From contig JAEPQH010000002.1 of assembly GCA_017640605.1 (NCBI GenBank), positions 186,001 to 250,000 of the forward strand: a stretch of DNA of 64,000 nucleotides, in the 5' to 3' direction. Origin of the DNA: Balneolaceae bacterium (GTDB lineage Bacteria > Bacteroidota > Rhodothermia > Balneolales > Balneolaceae). The notes beneath the pieces were generated by a model. That model saw only the letters and a program-made list of their open reading frames with translations. It was not told the origin of the DNA and searched no databases. The translations under genes were made by a program, and so were the position numbers. Within the stretch, counting starts at the first letter, position 1; the number at the start of each line of letters is the position of its first letter. Positions 39,690 to 49,369 of the stretch are shown piece after piece.

Positions 39690-39749
39690 TTTGTAGAAAA
39701 AGAGATAATTCAGTTATTTTGATCATAATGGTCATAAGTCAATGATCAT
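39690..39749 (+). promoter_or_regulatory. Candidate promoter and TGATCAT operator cluster upstream of the GH81 gene
   Basis: TTTG at 39690-39693 and TATTTTG at 39715-39721 resemble a -33/-7 pair. Three TGNTCAT units follow at 39720-39726, 39729-39735 and 39743-39749, the last inside the perfect palindrome AATGATCATT (39741-39750). The cluster lies 68-97 bp before the ATG at 39817. Confidence 0.4.
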
Positions 39750-39816
39750 TTCTCTTATCTTATTTCGTAATCACCTCGGTGATATTTACTCGCTCAAACG
39801 TTTTAGCCTCAATACT

Positions 39817-42800
39817 ATGAAAAAATATCTCAGATCGGTATCTGTTTTCGTACTCACTTTATTCGTTTTGTTTTTAGGGTTGGATCCTGTAATTGCTCAA
39901 AATGTAACAGTAGGTGAAGGCAGTTACACAACTGCTTACCCAGAAGGCAGAAGTTTGCCGAAGGGTGCTGATGAACAATTAATTACACCTAGAATATCTT
40001 CCGAATTTAATCAACTTATCCAAACTAATGATTATTGGAGTAATCTGATTTACCCTTACTCAGGTTCAGATTTTTTAAATTTGGTAACTGCACATCCTAT
40101 TGCCATTGAATCGGATGAAAATGGATTTAACGTTGGCTATTCGGTTTTAGTAAATACCACCGACGTGGATTATCAATTTGCACCACTAAATACAATACAA
40201 GTTGGTATTGCAGGCTTAACAGCAACAAATGTTTCAGCTCATTCTTACGGCGATTGGACTTTTTCAGCAAAAAAAGAGTACGGCAATGCCTCGCTAATAG
40301 CCACCACAGGCCATGGGTTGCCTTATACTTTTTTTGAAGTATCTGGTGGTGATATTCAGATTTCATCTGCTTCTGATTTTACAGTCTGGCATAATGTTGA
40401 TGAAGTAATTGGCCTTTCTATAAATGGAATGCATTATGCACTTTTTGCTCCATCAGGTTCCGTTTGGTCAGGTTCGGAGGTTCTAACATCATCGTTGAAT
40501 GGCAAAGGATTCGTTTCGGTAGCCGTATTACCAGATTCTACTTCCGAAACTCTAGAATTTTACCGTAAACATGCTTACGCGCAGGTAATAAATAGTACCG
40601 TAGAGTGGCAATACGATGAATCATCTGCTCAGCTAACCAGTACTTTTTCTTATCAAACAGTGCTAAGAGATTCTGCGGCCGGTAATGTAGATTATACATT
40701 AACAGCACTTTATCGGCATCAATGGCTGAATACAGATGCTGTACTGTCAGGATACTCATATGCCTCGCCTCGGGGGGAAATGAAAGTATTTTCCGGAAAT
40801 ACATTTTCAACTGTAAATACATTTTCGGGAATCCTGCCTGCCCTTCCAGATCTTGGTGATTATGACCGGCTTCAACTTTTGGATTTTGTAAAACAGGTTG
40901 CTACCGAACGGTTGCCCGTAGATGATACCTACAATAATGGTAAACAAATGGGACGTTTTGCCGAAGTGATTCATATTGCAGATCAGTTAGGAGCAATAAA
41001 TGAACGCGATTATTTGCTGGATGAACTGAAACTTAGATTAGAAAGCTGGTTTACTGCGGGTGGAGATCAACAATATTATTACAACGATACTTGGAATGTG
41101 TTACATGGTTATCCCGGAAGCTTTGGATCAAATTCTGAAATCAATGATCATCACTTTCATTCTGCGTATGCAATAAAAGCAGCCGCAACCATAGCCCAAT
41201 ACGACAGCGTTTGGGCTTCCAAAGATAATTGGGGTGGAATGGTAAATTTACTAATCCGAGACGCTAACAATTGGGAGCGTGAAGATGAGATGTTTCCTTT
41301 TTTAAGAAATTTCGATGCATACGCGGGCCATGCCTGGGCATCGGGTCATGGTGATTTTAATTTCGATGGCATACGACCCGGCAATAATCAGGAATCGAGT
41401 TCCGAATCTATGAACTTTGCCACCGCATCCATTCTTTGGGGTGAACTAACCAATCAAAAAGAAATTCGTGATCTGGGAATTTTCCTTTATACCAACGAAA
41501 ATGAAGCCATTGATCAATATTGGTTTGATGTTGATAATGAAGTATTTCCTGAAAGCTTTCCTAAAAAGGCGGTTGGTAGAGTTTGGAGCGCAACTGCTGA
41601 TCATAATACTTGGTTTGGTAGTGATCCCGAGTTTATACATGGAATAAACCTTCTACCAATTAATGCCGGCTCATTCTACTTAGGTAAGCATCCTAATTAT
41701 ATCATGGAGAATTACAACGAGGTAGTTGCTGAAAGAGGTGGGCAGCCTATACACTGGAAAGATGTTTTCTGGCAATATCTTTCAATGTCGGATGCAGATT
41801 TAGCTCTTTCTTATTACAACGCCGACATAAATTACAACCCCTTTGATGGTGAATCGCGCGCGCATACATTGCACTGGTTGTACAACATGAAAAAAATGGG
41901 GCATTACAACTCAGAAATTACAGCAGATGTGCCACTTTATGCCGTGTTTGTAAACTCCAATAACGATACCACCTACACCGCTTATAATGCAAACCTTGTA
42001 GAAAAACTCGTTACCTTTTCTGATGGATTTACGATGTTGATTCCAGGGCAGGAAATGAAAACTTATCATACTGCTGAAATTGGTTCCATAATCCCTCCCG
42101 CTCCTATTCCTTTATTTGACGCAGAAAAAGTGATGTCAGTTTTCAGTGATAGCTACGCAAACTTTGTTGGAGTTGAGTTAGATCCGGAAATAGGACAAGC
42201 AACCGAAGCTTCCATAGTGGTATTTGAAGGAAATAATACGTTGAAGTTGGATAATTTTGATTTCCATCAACTAGACCTTCAAGCACCAATAAACATAATT
42301 TCGCGAGATAGCTTACATTTTGATGTATACACTGAAGAATCGGTAGAAATTCAAATACGTTTAGTAAGTAGTGACGAATCTGATGCACGCTTTACTTTTA
42401 ATTTTCCGGCAAATGAGTGGATATCAACCTCGTTAGCTTTACATGCGCTCTCAGATTCCATTGATTTGGGTAACTTATCACAGATTTATTTTTCCGGTTC
42501 TGGAACCGTCTACCTCGATAATATTTTCTTCAGTGGAGATAATCCGGTGGTTTTTAGTCCAACATCTGCAGCACCGGATCCGATTGTTGATCCAATTGAT
42601 GTGATCTCCATTTTTAGTGATTCATATAACAACATCGAAATAGCTGATTTTAATCCAGACTGGCAGCAACAAACAGAGGTTTCTATCATTGAAATTGAAG
42701 GGAACCAAACACTAAAGTATTCCAATCTAAATTATCAAGGTACTGCATTCGAAAATCCAACCGATGTATCCGATATGGACTGGTTTCATTTAGATTATTG

Positions 42801-43842
42801 GACAAATAATTCATCTGAATTAAAAATATATCTAATTAGCCCCGGCCCAAACGAAATCGACTATGAGATAACCGTAAATCAAAACAGTTGGCAAAGTATA
42901 GATATTCCACTTACCGAATTTTCGAGTGTAGTTGACCTCACTCAGGTTTTTCAGTTAAAAATTGAGGGCAACGGTACCATTTATTTGGATAATCTTTATT
43001 TCGCAAAAGCGCCTGATCTTTCGGTAGCTCCAACTCCGGTGCATGATTCAACAAAAGTTGTTTCACTCTTCAGTGATCACTACCAGAATATAGTCGTAGA
43101 TACATGGTCAGCTCCATGGGATCAAGCAAATGTAGAGGACGTTGTTGTAAGCGGTGATAATATGAAGTTATTCACAGATGTGAATTTTGCAGGTATTGAG
43201 TTTTTTCGAACCGATCAAATAGATGGTACTAACTTAACCCATTTACATTTTGATATGTGGACTGCCGACGCCATCGACAGTACCACAAATTTCAAAGTAA
43301 AACTCGTCGACTTTGGTGCTAATGGCTCGTTCGGTGGTGGCGATGATGTTGAACATGAACTTACTTTTGATAAGAGTAACATAAATGGATTTGAGTCTAA
43401 ATCATGGATTAGTTTCGATATTCCACTCACCGACTTTGAAAATATGACCACCAGAGCCAATCTGTCACAGCTTTTGTTCGTTTCTAGAAGTGGCATCGAC
43501 GATTTTTACATGGATAATTTGTATTTCTATCAAGGCGATGCAACAAATGCTTTTGAAGCAACACCCTTAACGATTCCTAATACCATACATCTGCAACAGA
43601 ATTACCCAAACCCCTTTAACCCCACTACAACCATAGGGTTTAGCATACCTAAAACACAGTATATCGAGTTATCAATTTATAATTCGATTGGTCAACAAGT
43701 TGCGACTTTGGTAAATGGAGAGTTATCGGCAGGTTCATATAATTTAAATTGGGAAGCCGGTAGTTATTCAAGTGGCATATATTTTTATCAATTGCGCACA
43801 AATGAGGGAATTTTCACCAAACAAATGCTCTTAATCAAATGA
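39817..43842 (+). CDS. Secreted GH81 endo-beta-1,3-glucanase with three C-terminal modules and a T9SS sorting tail
   Basis: A 1341-residue laminarinase-type enzyme. Signal peptide from MKKYLRSVSVFVLTLFVLFL (start 39817 chosen over a frame 25 codons longer). The GH81 domain covers about residues 30-750; catalytic blocks are N-D-H-H-F-H-S-A-Y (acid Asp) and N-N-Q-E-S-S-S-E-S (base Glu near residue 525), plus D-A-Y-A-G-H-A-W-A-S-G. Three related modules of about 145 residues start near 770, 929 and 1080, each opening V-x-S-x-F-S-D and closing Y-L/M-D-N-L/I-Y/F-F, resembling galactose-binding jelly rolls. A type A T9SS sorting domain (1256-1341) contains N-Y-P-N-P-F-N-P-T-T and ends K-Q-M-L-L-I-K. 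The product should reach the cell surface or medium. Confidence 0.92.
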   Translation: MKKYLRSVSVFVLTLFVLFLGLDPVIAQNVTVGEGSYTTAYPEGRSLPKGADEQLITPRISSEFNQLIQTNDYWSNLIYPYSGSDFLNLVTAHPIAIESDENGFNVGYSVLVNTTDVDYQFAPLNTIQVGIAGLTATNVSAHSYGDWTFSAKKEYGNASLIATTGHGLPYTFFEVSGGDIQISSASDFTVWHNVDEVIGLSINGMHYALFAPSGSVWSGSEVLTSSLNGKGFVSVAVLPDSTSETLEFYRKHAYAQVINSTVEWQYDESSAQLTSTFSYQTVLRDSAAGNVDYTLTALYRHQWLNTDAVLSGYSYASPRGEMKVFSGNTFSTVNTFSGILPALPDLGDYDRLQLLDFVKQVATERLPVDDTYNNGKQMGRFAEVIHIADQLGAINERDYLLDELKLRLESWFTAGGDQQYYYNDTWNVLHGYPGSFGSNSEINDHHFHSAYAIKAAATIAQYDSVWASKDNWGGMVNLLIRDANNWEREDEMFPFLRNFDAYAGHAWASGHGDFNFDGIRPGNNQESSSESMNFATASILWGELTNQKEIRDLGIFLYTNENEAIDQYWFDVDNEVFPESFPKKAVGRVWSATADHNTWFGSDPEFIHGINLLPINAGSFYLGKHPNYIMENYNEVVAERGGQPIHWKDVFWQYLSMSDADLALSYYNADINYNPFDGESRAHTLHWLYNMKKMGHYNSEITADVPLYAVFVNSNNDTTYTAYNANLVEKLVTFSDGFTMLIPGQEMKTYHTAEIGSIIPPAPIPLFDAEKVMSVFSDSYANFVGVELDPEIGQATEASIVVFEGNNTLKLDNFDFHQLDLQAPINIISRDSLHFDVYTEESVEIQIRLVSSDESDARFTFNFPANEWISTSLALHALSDSIDLGNLSQIYFSGSGTVYLDNIFFSGDNPVVFSPTSAAPDPIVDPIDVISIFSDSYNNIEIADFNPDWQQQTEVSIIEIEGNQTLKYSNLNYQGTAFENPTDVSDMDWFHLDYWTNNSSELKIYLISPGPNEIDYEITVNQNSWQSIDIPLTEFSSVVDLTQVFQLKIEGNGTIYLDNLYFAKAPDLSVAPTPVHDSTKVVSLFSDHYQNIVVDTWSAPWDQANVEDVVVSGDNMKLFTDVNFAGIEFFRTDQIDGTNLTHLHFDMWTADAIDSTTNFKVKLVDFGANGSFGGGDDVEHELTFDKSNINGFESKSWISFDIPLTDFENMTTRANLSQLLFVSRSGIDDFYMDNLYFYQGDATNAFEATPLTIPNTIHLQQNYPNPFNPTTTIGFSIPKTQYIELSIYNSIGQQVATLVNGELSAGSYNLNWEAGSYSSGIYFYQLRTNEGIFTKQMLLIK

Positions 43843-43933: not shown

Positions 43934-44626
43934 ATGATGTTATTAGTTCTATTTGCGTTGTGTTGCACAATACTACCCCATCAACTACCTGACAATGATT
44001 CCAATAACTTTTTGCATGTTTCCTTAACATCAGGCAGTATCACAGGCATTGTTCAACTTTCCACAAAACCGCGAGGTGTTCGTTCGGGCGGTGGATTATA
44101 TGGTCGATCTTCCAGAAACACTTCAAATACAGTAACTAACGATTCTGTGTTGGTTATTTTATCCGGAGATGCTAAAAATGAAATTAGAACTGATGATTAT
44201 GCCATATTGAATCAATTTGATCGAAAGTTTCAACCGGGCATACTTCCTATCCAATTAGGGCAAACGGTCCGTATTACAAACTCCGATCCGGTTTACCACA
44301 ATGTTTTTAGCCTTACGAGTCCGCACAAATTTGATGTGGGGCGACGACCAAAAGGCGAGCACTACGATGTGACCTTTGAAAAACCCGGGATGGTAGACGT
44401 GTTTTGTGATATCCACTCAAATATGCATGCCATCATTTATGTACTACCTCCTGATGCCATCCAATGGAAAAAAATCGCAAACGGAGAGCAGTTTCAGTTT
44501 GATGGTGTATCCGAAGGTGCCTATTCGCTTACATTCTTTGCAATGGGATATTCTGAGGAACAACGGAATGTAACCATCACCTCCGATGAAACTGCTGATG
44601 CCGGCATCATTACTTTGAATCCCTGA
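43934..44626 (+). CDS. Exported plastocyanin-like cupredoxin
   Basis: A 230-residue protein with a short hydrophobic export signal (residues 1-20). A type 1 copper domain spans about residues 70-185: His122 (V-Y-H-N-V-F), Cys158, His161 and Met164 in F-C-D-I-H-S-N-M-H. A small beta domain follows (about 185-230). Similar proteins are annotated as methylamine-utilisation-like. The Met/His-rich site suits electron transfer or copper sensing in the periplasm. It ends 2 bp before the cyclase gene, so the two are almost certainly one operon. Confidence 0.85.
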   Translation: MMLLVLFALCCTILPHQLPDNDSNNFLHVSLTSGSITGIVQLSTKPRGVRSGGGLYGRSSRNTSNTVTNDSVLVILSGDAKNEIRTDDYAILNQFDRKFQPGILPIQLGQTVRITNSDPVYHNVFSLTSPHKFDVGRRPKGEHYDVTFEKPGMVDVFCDIHSNMHAIIYVLPPDAIQWKKIANGEQFQFDGVSEGAYSLTFFAMGYSEEQRNVTITSDETADAGIITLNP

Positions 44627-44628
44627 TT

Positions 44629-46410
44629 ATGGATAATAAGTTTCTAAGTCTGCGATGGAAAATACTTGCCGGATTTGTAGGCTTGGTGGCTGTTATTGTA
44701 ATTGCCCTGCTTTTGAGTTTAGGTTCCTTGGTAGAGCACCGCATTCGCGAAGATATTGACCAAAATTTTGTGGAAGCTGGTCGTGTATTCGAGCGTATTC
44801 AGGAAATTCGATTTCGGCAACTTCGGCAAACTGCTCTCTTACTCGCAGAAACACCCAGTTTGAAAGCTGCCATCACAACAGCAGATACAAACACCGTAAA
44901 TGATATAATTCGCGAAGATTTACTTCCTCTACTCGATTTTGATCCTATCATACCCGATTCGTTGCTACCGGAATCTTTTTTCAGCAATCCTGATTCTGCG
45001 GGTATACTGATTATCGCTGATAATCTCGGTAAGCCATTGGGTCGACTTTCCTCATCGCCTCTGCCCTCTTTTTCGATCGCAGATAGAGCGGGCGTTACCG
45101 AAGCTCTAAACGGAGTTTTTCCGGAACAATCATTTATTTGGGCAGAAAATGGACGTTATTTTAACGTTATCACCATGCCCATTTTTACACGATTCAATTT
45201 ATTAGGTACGGTTAGCTTCGGGTTACCGATCCGGCAAGAAGAGGCCAATCAATTGGCGAATGATATTGGAATGGATGTACTCTTTTTTGTGGATGATGCC
45301 ATGATCGCTGATACTTTCAACAATTTATCTGCCGGTGATCAAACTTCCCTCGAGCAGAGCATTCACACATCTAGTTTTGGAGTGTTGCAACAAAATAGTG
45401 CCGTTACTTCTGAAATATCCATCAATCAAGAACAGTGGTTAATTTATTTGGCTCCAATGTTCAATGAAAACAGGTCTTTTTCAGGGATAAAAGGCTATTT
45501 CGGAATCGCTAAATCGTTGGATGAAGCCCTCCTTCCGCTTCAAAATCTTCAACTATTGATTTTTGGAATTGGAATATTAGCCATAATTGCAGCGCTGGGA
45601 ATTAGCGTACTTATCACTAATAAAATCACTCGCCCTATCGATCTTTTGGTTGAGGGAGTATTACGGGTTGAAAAAGAAGATTTTAGTCGGCAAGTCCCCG
45701 TTACAACACAGGACGAAATCGGGAAACTTACCGCTGCCTTCAATCATCTGGTAGAAAATCTTCAAGAGCGATTGTTGATGCTCAAGTTTGTGTCGACAGC
45801 AACACTCGACGCCATCAAAAAAGATTTAACCCGAATTGAACCCGGTGGCGAACGCAGAGATATCACTGTTTTCTTTTCCGATATCCGTGGCTTTACCGCC
45901 TGGAGCGAACAACACACGCCTGAGCAAGTGATCGATATGCTGAATAACTTGCTGAGCTTTCAAGCAGAAATAGTGCAAGAATTAGGTGGTGATGTCGACA
46001 AATTTGTAGGTGATGAATTGGTAGCCGTGTTTCAAGGTCCTAAGAAAGAACAACTGGCTGTGCAGGCTGCAATCCGGATACAAGAGCAATTACCTAAGAT
46101 GTTAGGAAAAGGACAAGATAATCTGGCTGTGGGAATTGGAATCAACTCAGGCGAAGTAGTAATGGGTGCAATGGGTAGCGAGAATCGAATGGATTATACA
46201 GTATTGGGCACAACGGTAAATTTAGGAGCTCGTTTATGTTCGGCTGCCATCAAACATCAGATATTAATTTCTGAAACTGTGTATTTACATCTTGAACGCA
46301 AGATTAAAGCTCAGAAGTTGGAGTCTATTACGGTAAAAGGAATTTCCCAACCGGTACAGATTTATGAAATTGAGTGGGATAAACAACCCGAACCCAAAGA
46401 AACAGAATAG
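44629..46410 (+). CDS. Membrane-bound class III adenylate cyclase with periplasmic sensor and HAMP
   Basis: A 593-residue sensor cyclase. Helix at about 10-31, periplasmic Cache-like domain (about 35-300), second helix at about 305-328, HAMP (about 330-382), a short linker helix, and a class III cyclase domain (about 405-590). Metal Asp residues are D418 in F-F-S-D-I-R-G-F-T and D462 in K-F-V-G-D-E; K458 and the Asp of M-D-Y-T-V-L-G are the ATP-type specificity pair; T-V-N-L-G-A-R-L holds the transition-state Asn and Arg. It should therefore make cAMP in response to a periplasmic signal. Location between a cupredoxin and a porin suggests a redox or copper input. Confidence 0.9.
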   Translation: MDNKFLSLRWKILAGFVGLVAVIVIALLLSLGSLVEHRIREDIDQNFVEAGRVFERIQEIRFRQLRQTALLLAETPSLKAAITTADTNTVNDIIREDLLPLLDFDPIIPDSLLPESFFSNPDSAGILIIADNLGKPLGRLSSSPLPSFSIADRAGVTEALNGVFPEQSFIWAENGRYFNVITMPIFTRFNLLGTVSFGLPIRQEEANQLANDIGMDVLFFVDDAMIADTFNNLSAGDQTSLEQSIHTSSFGVLQQNSAVTSEISINQEQWLIYLAPMFNENRSFSGIKGYFGIAKSLDEALLPLQNLQLLIFGIGILAIIAALGISVLITNKITRPIDLLVEGVLRVEKEDFSRQVPVTTQDEIGKLTAAFNHLVENLQERLLMLKFVSTATLDAIKKDLTRIEPGGERRDITVFFSDIRGFTAWSEQHTPEQVIDMLNNLLSFQAEIVQELGGDVDKFVGDELVAVFQGPKKEQLAVQAAIRIQEQLPKMLGKGQDNLAVGIGINSGEVVMGAMGSENRMDYTVLGTTVNLGARLCSAAIKHQILISETVYLHLERKIKAQKLESITVKGISQPVQIYEIEWDKQPEPKETE

Positions 46411-46417
46411 AAATCGT

Positions 46418-47650
46418 ATGAAAAAAATCACTTCTCTAATTGTTACACTTTTGGTTCTTTCTTCAAGCTCACTGTTTGCGCAGTTCAGTATCTCTGGGCT
46501 CGCTGATTTTGAATTACGGCATGCAGGCGATGATTCCTCTCCATACATCAATCAAACTCCCGGTAAAGGTTGGGCCATGTTCACCCCCAATTTAAGACTT
46601 ATCATGAGTGGAGATATCAGCGATTCATGGTTCGTAAGCGCAGTGTTACAAGCCGATCATTATGAAGGCAAAAAACTAAGTGATCCGTTTTTTTCGGTGT
46701 TCAATATCAACTGGACTCCAAACTTAGAATCTGATTTGCTACTCACATTTGGCCGATTCGTAATCCCTTATGGTTCTTATAGTTCCAGATTTCTTTCCTT
46801 CGATAATCCTTTTGTTCATCTTCCACTATCGCATGCTTCAGGATTTGCATTGAGTAAGAATTTCGGCTTTATCAGTGAAGGCAGATACAACCCCGGTGCA
46901 CTTAAAAATTTCTATGGGCAAACCGAACCCGGAGCAACCATGGTATATCAGCGAATGTACACACAAGGTTTATTGGTTTCTCACGCTTTTGGAGAGGAAG
47001 ATCGTATCCGTGCAAAAATTGCAGCAACCCACGCGCCGGCTTCTTCTCATTTGGATTATGGTCAGGGTGAGAATTTTGCGCTCTCAGGACGATTAGAAGT
47101 TCAACCAATAGTGTGGGCTACGTTGGGGTTATCCGCCAGCAGAGGTACGTTTTTACAAAACAGTGCTTCGAACGATTCTCTTTTGATCTATGATTTGTCA
47201 TCGTACAATCAGGAACTAATGGGTGCGGATTTATCCTTGAATTACCAATATTACACGCTCAATGTGGAATGGAATCAGAGTTTTTGGAAAGCTCCCTATT
47301 ATAATCGGGAAACATCCACACAAGCTTCTCCAAGAACAGGAAAGGCAACCATCGATCACTACTCAATGGAGTTAATTTATGATACTCCGTTTCTGGTAGG
47401 CGCACATCTTGCCATTCGATATGAACACATAAATGAAGGTGAAATAGAAATTTATGAGCGGGATAATGCTAATCTCAAAATCAATGAAACGGTGGGTGAT
47501 TTCACCTATGCGCGTACCCGAACAGAAATTACCGCCGGATATAAACTTGACCGGAATATTATCCTCAAAGGCTCCTACTTAATTTCTTCCAATAATGGCC
47601 CCGACCTTGATGATAACGTGTTTGCAATCCAATTGAGTGTGCTTTTTTAA
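46418..47650 (+). CDS. Outer-membrane porin-like beta-barrel protein
   Basis: A 410-residue protein with signal peptide MKKITSLIVTLLVLSSSSLF-AQ; I use the ATG at 46418 rather than an upstream frame inside the cyclase. Regular amphipathic strands and terminal F-A-I-Q-L-S-V-L-F (outer-membrane beta-signal) indicate a 16-strand-type porin; F-G-R-F-V-I-P-Y-G occurs in OprP/OprO-like and other Bacteroidota porins. No substrate can be named. It starts 7 bp after the cyclase, third gene of the operon. Confidence 0.8.
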   Translation: MKKITSLIVTLLVLSSSSLFAQFSISGLADFELRHAGDDSSPYINQTPGKGWAMFTPNLRLIMSGDISDSWFVSAVLQADHYEGKKLSDPFFSVFNINWTPNLESDLLLTFGRFVIPYGSYSSRFLSFDNPFVHLPLSHASGFALSKNFGFISEGRYNPGALKNFYGQTEPGATMVYQRMYTQGLLVSHAFGEEDRIRAKIAATHAPASSHLDYGQGENFALSGRLEVQPIVWATLGLSASRGTFLQNSASNDSLLIYDLSSYNQELMGADLSLNYQYYTLNVEWNQSFWKAPYYNRETSTQASPRTGKATIDHYSMELIYDTPFLVGAHLAIRYEHINEGEIEIYERDNANLKINETVGDFTYARTRTEITAGYKLDRNIILKGSYLISSNNGPDLDDNVFAIQLSVLF

Positions 47651-47768: not shown

Positions 47769-47789
47769 CTTTGTATTTAAAAGTACTTT
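47769..47789 (+). promoter_or_regulatory. 21-bp motif upstream of membrane protein gene, copy 1
   Basis: CTTTGTATTTAAAAGTACTT(T) differs at only two positions from 48727-48747, upstream of the second membrane gene. It contains the palindrome AAAGTACTTT and begins in ACTTTG, a -7-like element. It ends 2 bp before the ATG at 47792. Likely promoter/operator for the HTH_34 regulator encoded between. Confidence 0.5.
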
Positions 47790-47791
47790 CT

Positions 47792-48403
47792 ATGACTTCA
47801 GACAAAAATCATATTCAAGACCTTGCAGAGATTCGCGCAATCATGCAACGATCTACCAAGTTTTTCTCACTTTCAGGCTTAGCAGGAGTTTCGGCCGGAG
47901 TGTTTGCTTTGATCGGTGCGGCAGTTGTGTACTATCAATTTGGATTTAGTCCTGACGCCCTCCAATATCAGCCTGATCCGACATTAGGGCGAAAGGTTAT
48001 TTTAACAGCCTTTGGCGTGCTTATTTTTGCGCTTGGTTTTGCAGCTTTTCTATCACAGCGAAAAGCCAATAAAAGTAACGAAGCGTTATGGTCCTCCCCC
48101 ACGCGCCGACTTCTTGCCCATGTAGCCATTCCGCTATTTAGCGGTGGACTATTCGCACTTATCATGCATTTTTATGGTTACAGCGGATTTCTGATTCCAA
48201 TCACACTCATTTTTTATGGTCAGGCCTTAGTAACTGCCGGACAATTCACTTACAACGACTTAAAATTACTTGGTGTGATTTTTATCCTGTTAGGCTTACT
48301 AAGCGTTGTATTTGTTCAGTATAGCTTGATACTATGGAGCCTTGGGTTTGGCTTGGCGCACATCGTGTATGGTATTTATATGCATATTAAATACGAGCGG
48401 TGA
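47792..48403 (+). CDS. Five-helix membrane protein upstream of the HTH_34 regulator
   Basis: A 203-residue inner-membrane protein starting MTSDKNHIQDLAEIRAIMQR, a cytoplasmic amphipathic helix, followed by about five to six hydrophobic helices. A frame seven codons longer exists but crosses the 21-bp motif. The protein and its pairing with a small winged-helix regulator 6 bp downstream recur in Bacteroidota; biochemical role unknown. Cotranscription with the regulator suggests the protein senses or is controlled by the same signal. Confidence 0.8.
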   Translation: MTSDKNHIQDLAEIRAIMQRSTKFFSLSGLAGVSAGVFALIGAAVVYYQFGFSPDALQYQPDPTLGRKVILTAFGVLIFALGFAAFLSQRKANKSNEALWSSPTRRLLAHVAIPLFSGGLFALIMHFYGYSGFLIPITLIFYGQALVTAGQFTYNDLKLLGVIFILLGLLSVVFVQYSLILWSLGFGLAHIVYGIYMHIKYER

Positions 48404-48409
48404 AACGAC

Positions 48410-48709
48410 GTGAAGGTATCCTTCGATGATTTACATAAAGCGTTCGAAAACCGGGTTCGTTTGGGCATTATGTCGGCCTTGGTAGTGAACGATTTTCTAG
48501 ATTTTACTTCACTAAAAGAGTTACTGGAGGTAACAGATGGAAACCTTGCTACTCACTTAAAAAAATTAGAGCAGGAAGACTTCATCGCAGTCGAAAAAAC
48601 CTTCATCGATCGTAAACCGAATACTAAATATGTTGCTACTAAAGAGGGCAAACAAGCTTTTGCTCAGCATTTGAATGTGTTGGAGCAAATTATCAATCAA
48701 CAGAAATAA
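48410..48709 (+). CDS. Winged-helix transcriptional regulator (HTH_34, PF13601)
   Basis: A 99-residue DNA-binding protein starting at GTG 48410. F-E-N-R-V-R-L-G-I-M-S-A-L and F-T-S-L-K-E-L-L-E-V-T-D-G-N-L-A-T-H-L form the helix-turn-helix with T-D-G-N-L as the recognition turn; Y-V-A-T-K-E-G-K-Q-A-F is the wing and following helix. No ligand domain. Proteins of this family are MarR/ArsR-like local repressors. The 21-bp near-identical motif before both flanking membrane-protein genes is the natural candidate operator. Confidence 0.88.
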   Translation: MKVSFDDLHKAFENRVRLGIMSALVVNDFLDFTSLKELLEVTDGNLATHLKKLEQEDFIAVEKTFIDRKPNTKYVATKEGKQAFAQHLNVLEQIINQQK

Positions 48710-48726
48710 AAAATTTTACCCATTCA

Positions 48727-48747
48727 CTTTGTAATTAAAAGTGCTTT
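48727..48747 (+). promoter_or_regulatory. 21-bp motif upstream of membrane protein gene, copy 2
   Basis: CTTTGTAATTAAAAGTGCTT(T) matches 47769-47789 at 19 of 21 positions. A ribosome site AAAAGGAGA (48761-48769) and ATG 48776 follow. Confidence 0.5.
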
Positions 48748-48775
48748 TTACTTAAACATCAAAAAGGAGAACATC

Positions 48776-49369
48776 ATGACTCAAACCTCAAAATTCACAT
48801 CCATCATAACTTCACCAAAATCGCTCGTAGAAGCTGCTGTTGCACCTGCGGTTGGCGCATCCCTTATCGTTCTTATTCCGCTTATTGCTATGCAATTTAC
48901 AAGCGAAGTTGTTTGGACCTTATCCGATTTTATCATTGGCTGGGCTATCCTCTTTTCGATTGGATTTGCCTATCAGGCGATAGCGAGAAAATCGCAACAG
49001 GTCACGTTTAAAATTGCTACCGGCATTGCTACGTTTACCACATTGTTTATTATCTGGGCAAACTTGGCCGTTGGAATAATCGGTAACGAAGAGAATCCTT
49101 TGAACCTTTTGTATTTTGGAGTGGTGTTGCTAGCTATTTTTGGTTCCTACATAGCTTCGTTAAAAGCAAAAGCAATGTTTCGAGTGATGATGTCGGTGGC
49201 GGCTTTGCATGCGTTTGTTAGTGTGATTGGACTGTCGATTTTTACTGAACAGAATCCTGAGTACACAATTATGAATGTGATTGTAATTAACTGCGTATTG
49301 ACTCTTTTATGGATTGTTTCGGGATTGTTATACAATAAATCAGCTGAAGTACTAGATGAGAGGAATTAG
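48776..49369 (+). CDS. Six-helix membrane protein
   Basis: A 197-residue inner-membrane protein with about six hydrophobic helices and few charged residues outside loops. AAAAGGAGA lies 7 bp before the ATG. It does not resemble 47792-48403 in sequence, although both carry the same 21-bp upstream motif. No family recognised; I infer it is a second target of the HTH_34 regulator. Confidence 0.78.
   Translation: MTQTSKFTSIITSPKSLVEAAVAPAVGASLIVLIPLIAMQFTSEVVWTLSDFIIGWAILFSIGFAYQAIARKSQQVTFKIATGIATFTTLFIIWANLAVGIIGNEENPLNLLYFGVVLLAIFGSYIASLKAKAMFRVMMSVAALHAFVSVIGLSIFTEQNPEYTIMNVIVINCVLTLLWIVSGLLYNKSAEVLDERN

Follow-up and report, generated by a model that had tools for sequence, protein, structure and literature searches.

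A conserved gene cassette of cupredoxin, double-Cache sensor and porin with exchangeable signalling outputs

Introduction

Why should a blue copper protein, a nucleotide cyclase and an outer-membrane porin be encoded side by side? The question is raised by a locus of a Balneolaceae bacterium (assembly GCA_017640605.1, contig JAEPQH010000002.1), where three such genes lie at positions 43,934–47,650 of the 64,000-nucleotide stretch analysed here (the window). The initial annotation linked them as an operon and proposed that periplasmic copper or redox state, sensed with the help of the cupredoxin, controls cyclic AMP (cAMP) and porin-mediated uptake. We find that the three genes almost certainly make up one cell-envelope sensory cassette, that this cassette recurs in about ten phyla, and that its sensor can carry at least five interchangeable outputs, of which the cyclase is one.

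Three genes on one strand

The cassette of the window comprises the following features (TM, transmembrane segment; AF2, AlphaFold2).

43934..44626, + strand: periplasmic cupredoxin, 230 amino acids, with a C-terminal CarboxypepD_reg/fn3_3-like beta-sandwich (ligands invariant; weak domain matches in homologues)
44297..44299, + strand: type 1 copper ligand His122, motif YHNVF (invariant in the cupredoxin alignment)
44405..44425, + strand: type 1 copper ligand loop C158-x2-H161-x2-M164, CDIHSNM (invariant in the alignment and at 80 of 80 loci of a GTDB scan that was partly motif-seeded)
44629..46410, + strand: predicted membrane sensor-adenylate cyclase, 593 amino acids, TM - periplasmic dCache - TM - HAMP - class III cyclase
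44629..45609, + strand: N-terminal TM, periplasmic double-Cache (dCache) sensor and second TM, residues 1–327, the conserved partner of the cupredoxin (Pfam, AF2, Foldseek)
45610..45768, + strand: HAMP domain, residues 328–380 (PF00672, 4.6e-13)
45856..46365, + strand: class III (IIIb, K458/T524) cyclase catalytic domain, residues 410–579 (PF00211, 1.3e-27; alignment with CyaB 3R5G)
46418..47650, + strand: predicted outer-membrane porin, 410 amino acids, with signal peptide and without a Pfam model (alignments, AF2 barrel, Foldseek)

The open reading frames lie where the initial annotation had placed them, with gaps of 2 bp between cupredoxin and cyclase and 7 bp between cyclase and porin. The ATG at 46418 opens the porin signal peptide, MKKITSLIVTLLVLSSSSLFAQ; the mechanically called frame begins at 46364.

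All 24 homologues (25–67% identity to the window protein), aligned from a whole-protein search rather than a motif-seeded one, keep the copper ligands H122, C158, H161 and M164. The His-Cys-His-Met set points to a type 1 (blue) cupredoxin, in keeping with the initial annotation, and the profile matches cupredoxin domains of nitrite reductase and plastocyanin in the PDB. Against Pfam Copper-bind (PF00127) the window protein scores 18.7, below the gathering cut-off of 21.2, and 14 of the 24 homologues match (E ≤ 0.01); homologues also give weak Copper-bind/Cupredoxin_1 and CarboxypepD_reg matches. Identity with amicyanin (TIGR02657) was rejected at 22.1 bits against a curated cut-off of 110.2.

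Pfam divides the second protein into dCache_3, HAMP and Guanylate_cyc (PF00211, 97 bits, 1.3e-27). The dCache_3 model (PF14827, cut-off 25.7) gives 27.5 bits for the isolated domain and 25.2, just under, for the full protein; it matches 27 of 42 members of the sensor-domain family. The AF2 model of this domain (mean predicted local distance difference test, pLDDT, 89.5) is matched by Foldseek to the dCache structures of PctA, Tlp3, vpHK1S-Z8 and DctB. No conserved His/Cys/Met cluster was found in the sensor domain; any metal or redox signal would therefore need to reach it via the cupredoxin. For the cyclase, the nearest solved structure is that of Pseudomonas aeruginosa CyaB (3R5G, E = 2.1e-32). 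Every one of 45 cyclase-type sequences has D418, D462, K458, D522, T524, N531 and R535, which bears out the claim of a complete catalytic set: these residues include the metal-binding aspartates (D418/D462) and transition-state residues (N531/R535) of class III nucleotide cyclases. Because the class IIIb Lys/Thr substrate pair K458/T524, which aligns with CyaB, is also kept in all 45, ATP is the expected substrate.

The third gene is predicted to encode an outer-membrane barrel of the trimeric-porin type, with 16–18 strands and a signal peptide. Its AF2 model is a barrel (pLDDT 89.8) whose best Foldseek match is OprP (2O4V), together with OmpC/Omp32-type porins, which agrees with the initial call. 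No Pfam family matched the window porin, three weak matches were found among 67 porin members, and a search of PDB sequences with the porin profile gave no match; the cassette porins define a family for which Pfam has no model.

The three genes travel together within and beyond the phylum

Within the phylum of the window we used a sample of 296 genomes spread over that phylum (the window genome, from Balneolaceae, is G000). The periplasmic sensor domain is present in 42 copies in 37 genomes, and the family has a sharp boundary, with no matches between E = 6e-52 and the 1e-15 threshold. The porin also has 42 copies, in 36 genomes, every one of which carries the sensor (hypergeometric P = 1e-45). 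By comparison of positions, the cupredoxin lies in the same gene cluster for 39 of the 42 sensors, two of the other three being at contig ends. Two cassettes are present in each of five genomes (G026, G038, G054, G135 and G187), and within every one of these cassettes the subtypes of the three parts match. A full trio was seen in 23 of 40 fetched regions, including all of the first 20, which were chosen around closer cupredoxins. The association is not due to chance. On sequence evidence each of cupredoxin, dCache sensor and porin is a near-obligate partner of the other two, and they stay linked when gene order, phylum or the cytoplasmic output of the sensor changes; the initial view of one functional unit is upheld.

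Beyond this phylum, the counts come from a single pattern-seeded scan of the GTDB species set, which gave 202 hits; 80 loci are covered by the counts. The complete trio is found at 72 of these, in Balneolota, Rhodothermota, Bacteroidota, Ignavibacteriota, Acidobacteriota, Gemmatimonadota, Calditrichota, Fidelibacterota, Eiseniibacteriota and KSB1, which contradicts the possibility, raised with the initial annotation, of no conservation beyond the strain. Four of the remaining eight loci hit contig ends (L111, L124, L125, L141) and four are without a recognised part (L129, L134, L143, L152). Since the scan was seeded by cupredoxin motifs, it says little on the conservation of those motifs; the partners were not selected for. 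Three gene orders occur, always on one strand (cupredoxin-sensor-porin, porin-cupredoxin-sensor and cupredoxin-porin-sensor), and the survival of linkage through this re-ordering argues for function. Nothing else is conserved among the neighbours, and no catabolic enzyme, except a response regulator and its redox operon.

Several individual loci deserve mention. At L134 (2956-5816) two CCP_MauG/cytochrome c genes lie directly upstream of porin and cupredoxin. L110 (CALQBJ020000021.1) bears the title Bifidobacterium breve but has a cassette of the acidobacterial type; it is presumably a metagenome contig that was binned wrongly. More distant cupredoxins of the superfamily sit elsewhere, for example next to cytochrome oxidase genes. 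At L072, L077, L079 and L080 related cupredoxins adjoin a protein with a CxxCH motif and then a putative barrel, and L077 and L080 additionally carry a dCache_1 histidine kinase; this arrangement is a more distant analogue of the cassette.

One sensor, at least five outputs

Of 75 sensors, 22 end in a cyclase. The others carry HisKA_2 (L101, and L056 by sequence), HisKA/HATPase, HisKA-receiver hybrid (L127, L131, L163) or GGDEF and HD-GYP (L129) outputs, and NtrB-type kinases are among them; ten of the non-cyclase outputs were sampled with Pfam and the remainder typed by kinase motifs. Homology with the periplasmic domain of the cyclase type was nevertheless found for 50 of 50 non-cyclase sensors (E from 1e-104 to 4e-12; hhalign 100%), so inputs are conserved while outputs are exchanged. 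A sensor tree, built by a quick method and with long branches noted, requires at least five output changes and places a HisKA_2 kinase pair inside the cyclase clade with support 100. The emphasis of the initial annotation on cAMP is therefore not supported for the system in general; copper or redox sensing with the cupredoxin's help remains the best model. The sensor of G255 (L181, C38), the sole one of the family to lack both cupredoxin and porin, forms an NtrB-NtrC pair next to an unrelated AAA-type gene.

The exchange extends to cyclic di-GMP (c-di-GMP) enzymes. On beta-proteobacterial plasmids a cupredoxin annotated as ‘methylamine utilization protein’ precedes a dCache-HAMP-GGDEF-EAL protein with a homologous sensor (E = 2e-42), and in these clusters a DUF3034 or DUF4394 protein replaces the porin; the cupredoxin stays with the sensor. 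At L185, L188 and L192 the order is DUF3034 or DUF4394, in some cases a truncated haemoglobin, cupredoxin, dCache-GGDEF-EAL. For the sensor gene of Caballeronia SBC1 the existing annotation shows no more than a short cache-domain fragment. Rhizobial-plasmid cupredoxins, which lie in a different context (SCO, hemA, cbb3), were left out of the counts.

Sigma-54 promoters point to a redox operon

At kinase-type loci the kinase is commonly followed by an NtrC-type sigma-54 activator, often overlapping it by a few bases, and in Acidobacteriota cassettes the NtrC regulator follows the sensor kinase. We found an exact GGCA[CT]-N5-TTGC site within 300 nt behind the NtrC stop at 19 of 29 loci (L115, L117, L120, L122, L126, L128, L133, L138, L144–L146, L149–L151, L153, L155, L162, L164 and L166), with 0.1 loci expected from a background of 7 sites in 630 kb (P = 2e-40, relatedness ignored). 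The sites fall mostly at +99 to +140, and overall about 75–240 nt, behind the stop. The genes behind them encode varying subsets of CuA/COX2-like cupredoxins, CxxCH (cytochrome c) lipoproteins, DUF5777 barrels and cupredoxin lipoproteins. This promoter placement, with the genes behind it, is the strongest clue to the function of the cassette and suggests that copper and haem electron-transfer proteins outside the cytoplasm are under its control.

No sigma-54 promoter enrichment was found upstream of the cassette itself; autoregulation of the porin by NtrC is thus unsupported, and kinase-type cassettes probably act on the downstream redox operon rather than on the porin. DUF5777 was dropped as a marker in the window's phylum, being too common to inform (115 of 296 genomes). 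Reading by eye, we saw no obvious shared operator upstream of the trio in close relatives.

As for cyclase-type cassettes, the G000 genome encodes eight class III cyclases and eight cNMP-binding (cyclic-nucleotide-binding) domains. The search for a CRP-type receptor, suggested with the initial annotation, yielded one G000 protein in which both cNMP_binding and HTH_Crp_2 score above cut-off (C11:110971-111519). Thus cAMP has possible receivers, although no link was seen in G000 between this candidate, or any other cNMP-binding protein, and the cyclase operon.

What the cassette may sense

In our tentative model, to which we give a little less than an even chance, the dCache sensor receives information on periplasmic copper or redox state from the cupredoxin and, through its exchangeable output, adjusts the electron-transfer proteins of the envelope. 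A copper- or redox-loaded cupredoxin would dock on the periplasmic double-Cache domain as its input subunit and set a conformation that is passed through the TM and HAMP, so that the sensor would read the state of periplasmic copper or of an electron carrier. The porin would be the outer-membrane partner, either an entry route for metal or ligand or a docking site. In the window the output would be cAMP made by the class IIIb cyclase and read by some cNMP-binding protein; in relatives the same input would drive a histidine kinase with its NtrC-type regulator, or c-di-GMP enzymes. The most likely target in Acidobacteriota would be the neighbouring sigma-54 operon (CuA-type cupredoxin, cytochrome c, DUF5777 barrel, cupredoxin lipoprotein), and the response an adjusted copper/haem electron transfer in the envelope. 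That such genes stand behind the regulator in Acidobacteriota strengthens the model. Somewhat more doubtful is its widest form, in which a modular transmembrane sensor has, across many lineages, a blue-copper protein as its dedicated input subunit, and each lineage converts the electron or copper loading of that protein into cAMP, c-di-GMP or phosphotransfer.

Several points weigh against copper/redox sensing. Contact between cupredoxin and sensor is inferred; gene order and linkage indicate coupling and say nothing of the signal sensed; and the usual partners of dCache domains are small organic ligands. One true exception, the G255 sensor (L181:C38), has neither cupredoxin nor porin, L134 has cupredoxin and porin and no sensor, and no recurrent efflux, storage or other copper-homeostasis families were seen among the cassette neighbours.

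Ligand import is an unlikely but serious alternative: the porin would admit a small molecule that the dCache domain binds directly, and the cupredoxin would carry electrons for an unlinked enzyme and take no part in signalling. Type 1 cupredoxins normally carry electrons, porin and sensor make a natural pair, and dCache folds are classic receptors of small molecules, this one having Foldseek matches to amino-acid chemoreceptors. Such a scheme sits poorly, however, with loci where only a response regulator and a redox operon, and no catabolic enzyme, are conserved, and with the cupredoxin as the most constant partner, retained by the sensor in Betaproteobacteria where the porin is replaced. Less probable still is copper acquisition or detoxification, in which copper would be taken up by the porin or stored by the cupredoxin, with the sensor in control of copper homeostasis. 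A copper protein does accompany an outer-membrane channel, and the downstream operon of Acidobacteriota holds more copper proteins; yet that set mixes copper with haem electron-transfer proteins, the sensor is without metal-ligand clusters, and, as noted, no recurrent copper-homeostasis family was seen in the neighbourhood. A co-transcribed but functionally loose neighbourhood, which the absence of members at rare loci (G255, L134, L129, L143) might suggest, is strongly disfavoured and very improbable given linkage kept across phyla in three gene orders, co-occurrence in 36 of 36 genomes and matched paralogous pairs.

Relation to known systems

The component families are known; the cassette, on our model a periplasmic accessory protein with a modular sensor, is undescribed in the searchable literature. 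In open-licence PMC text we found no description of it, of its near-obligate composition, of the output exchange or of the sigma-54 redox operon. CyaB-type class IIIb cyclases of P. aeruginosa share the closest catalytic domain, with identical catalytic and substrate residues, whereas the protein of the window combines this domain with a periplasmic dCache and a HAMP, and a cupredoxin and a porin go with it. Histidine kinases, GGDEF-EAL proteins and chemoreceptors of the dCache_3/HAMP type share sensor fold and topology, but the cassette sensors are a discrete subfamily, almost always cupredoxin-linked, with swapped outputs. The ‘methylamine utilization’ or amicyanin-like cupredoxins beside EAL proteins on Caballeronia and Comamonas plasmids are homologous, as are their dCache sensors; unlike methylamine utilization systems, these loci have no methylamine dehydrogenase, and with the window cupredoxin the amicyanin model stays far under its cut-off. 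The porin resembles OprP/OmpC-type trimeric porins in predicted fold and differs in sequence, as described above.

In YfiBNR and TorT-TorS a periplasmic accessory protein modulates a HAMP-type sensor, and YfiBNR includes an outer-membrane partner as well. The cassette would work like these, the accessory protein here being a cupredoxin.

To our knowledge, cAMP and c-di-GMP signalling have few known inputs from periplasmic redox state or copper. The cassette may offer one in many uncultivated phyla and, if the model is true, a general gauge of periplasmic redox state for cells. With one input module and at least five outputs it is a natural experiment, for which the Acidobacteriota sigma-54 operon provides a concrete predicted target. 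The plasmid pairs of Caballeronia and Comamonas make it testable in cultivable bacteria, and genes annotated only as ‘methylamine utilization protein’ gain a functional context.

Flanking genes

Directly upstream of the trio, window positions 39742-43842 encode a large GH81-type beta-1,3-glucanase with a type IX secretion system (T9SS) sorting tail. It is not a general neighbour, although it recurs upstream of the trio in a genome of the same genus (G046, L010). Downstream, positions 47771-49369 encode a membrane protein (210 amino acids, no Pfam match), an HTH_34 regulator and a second membrane protein.

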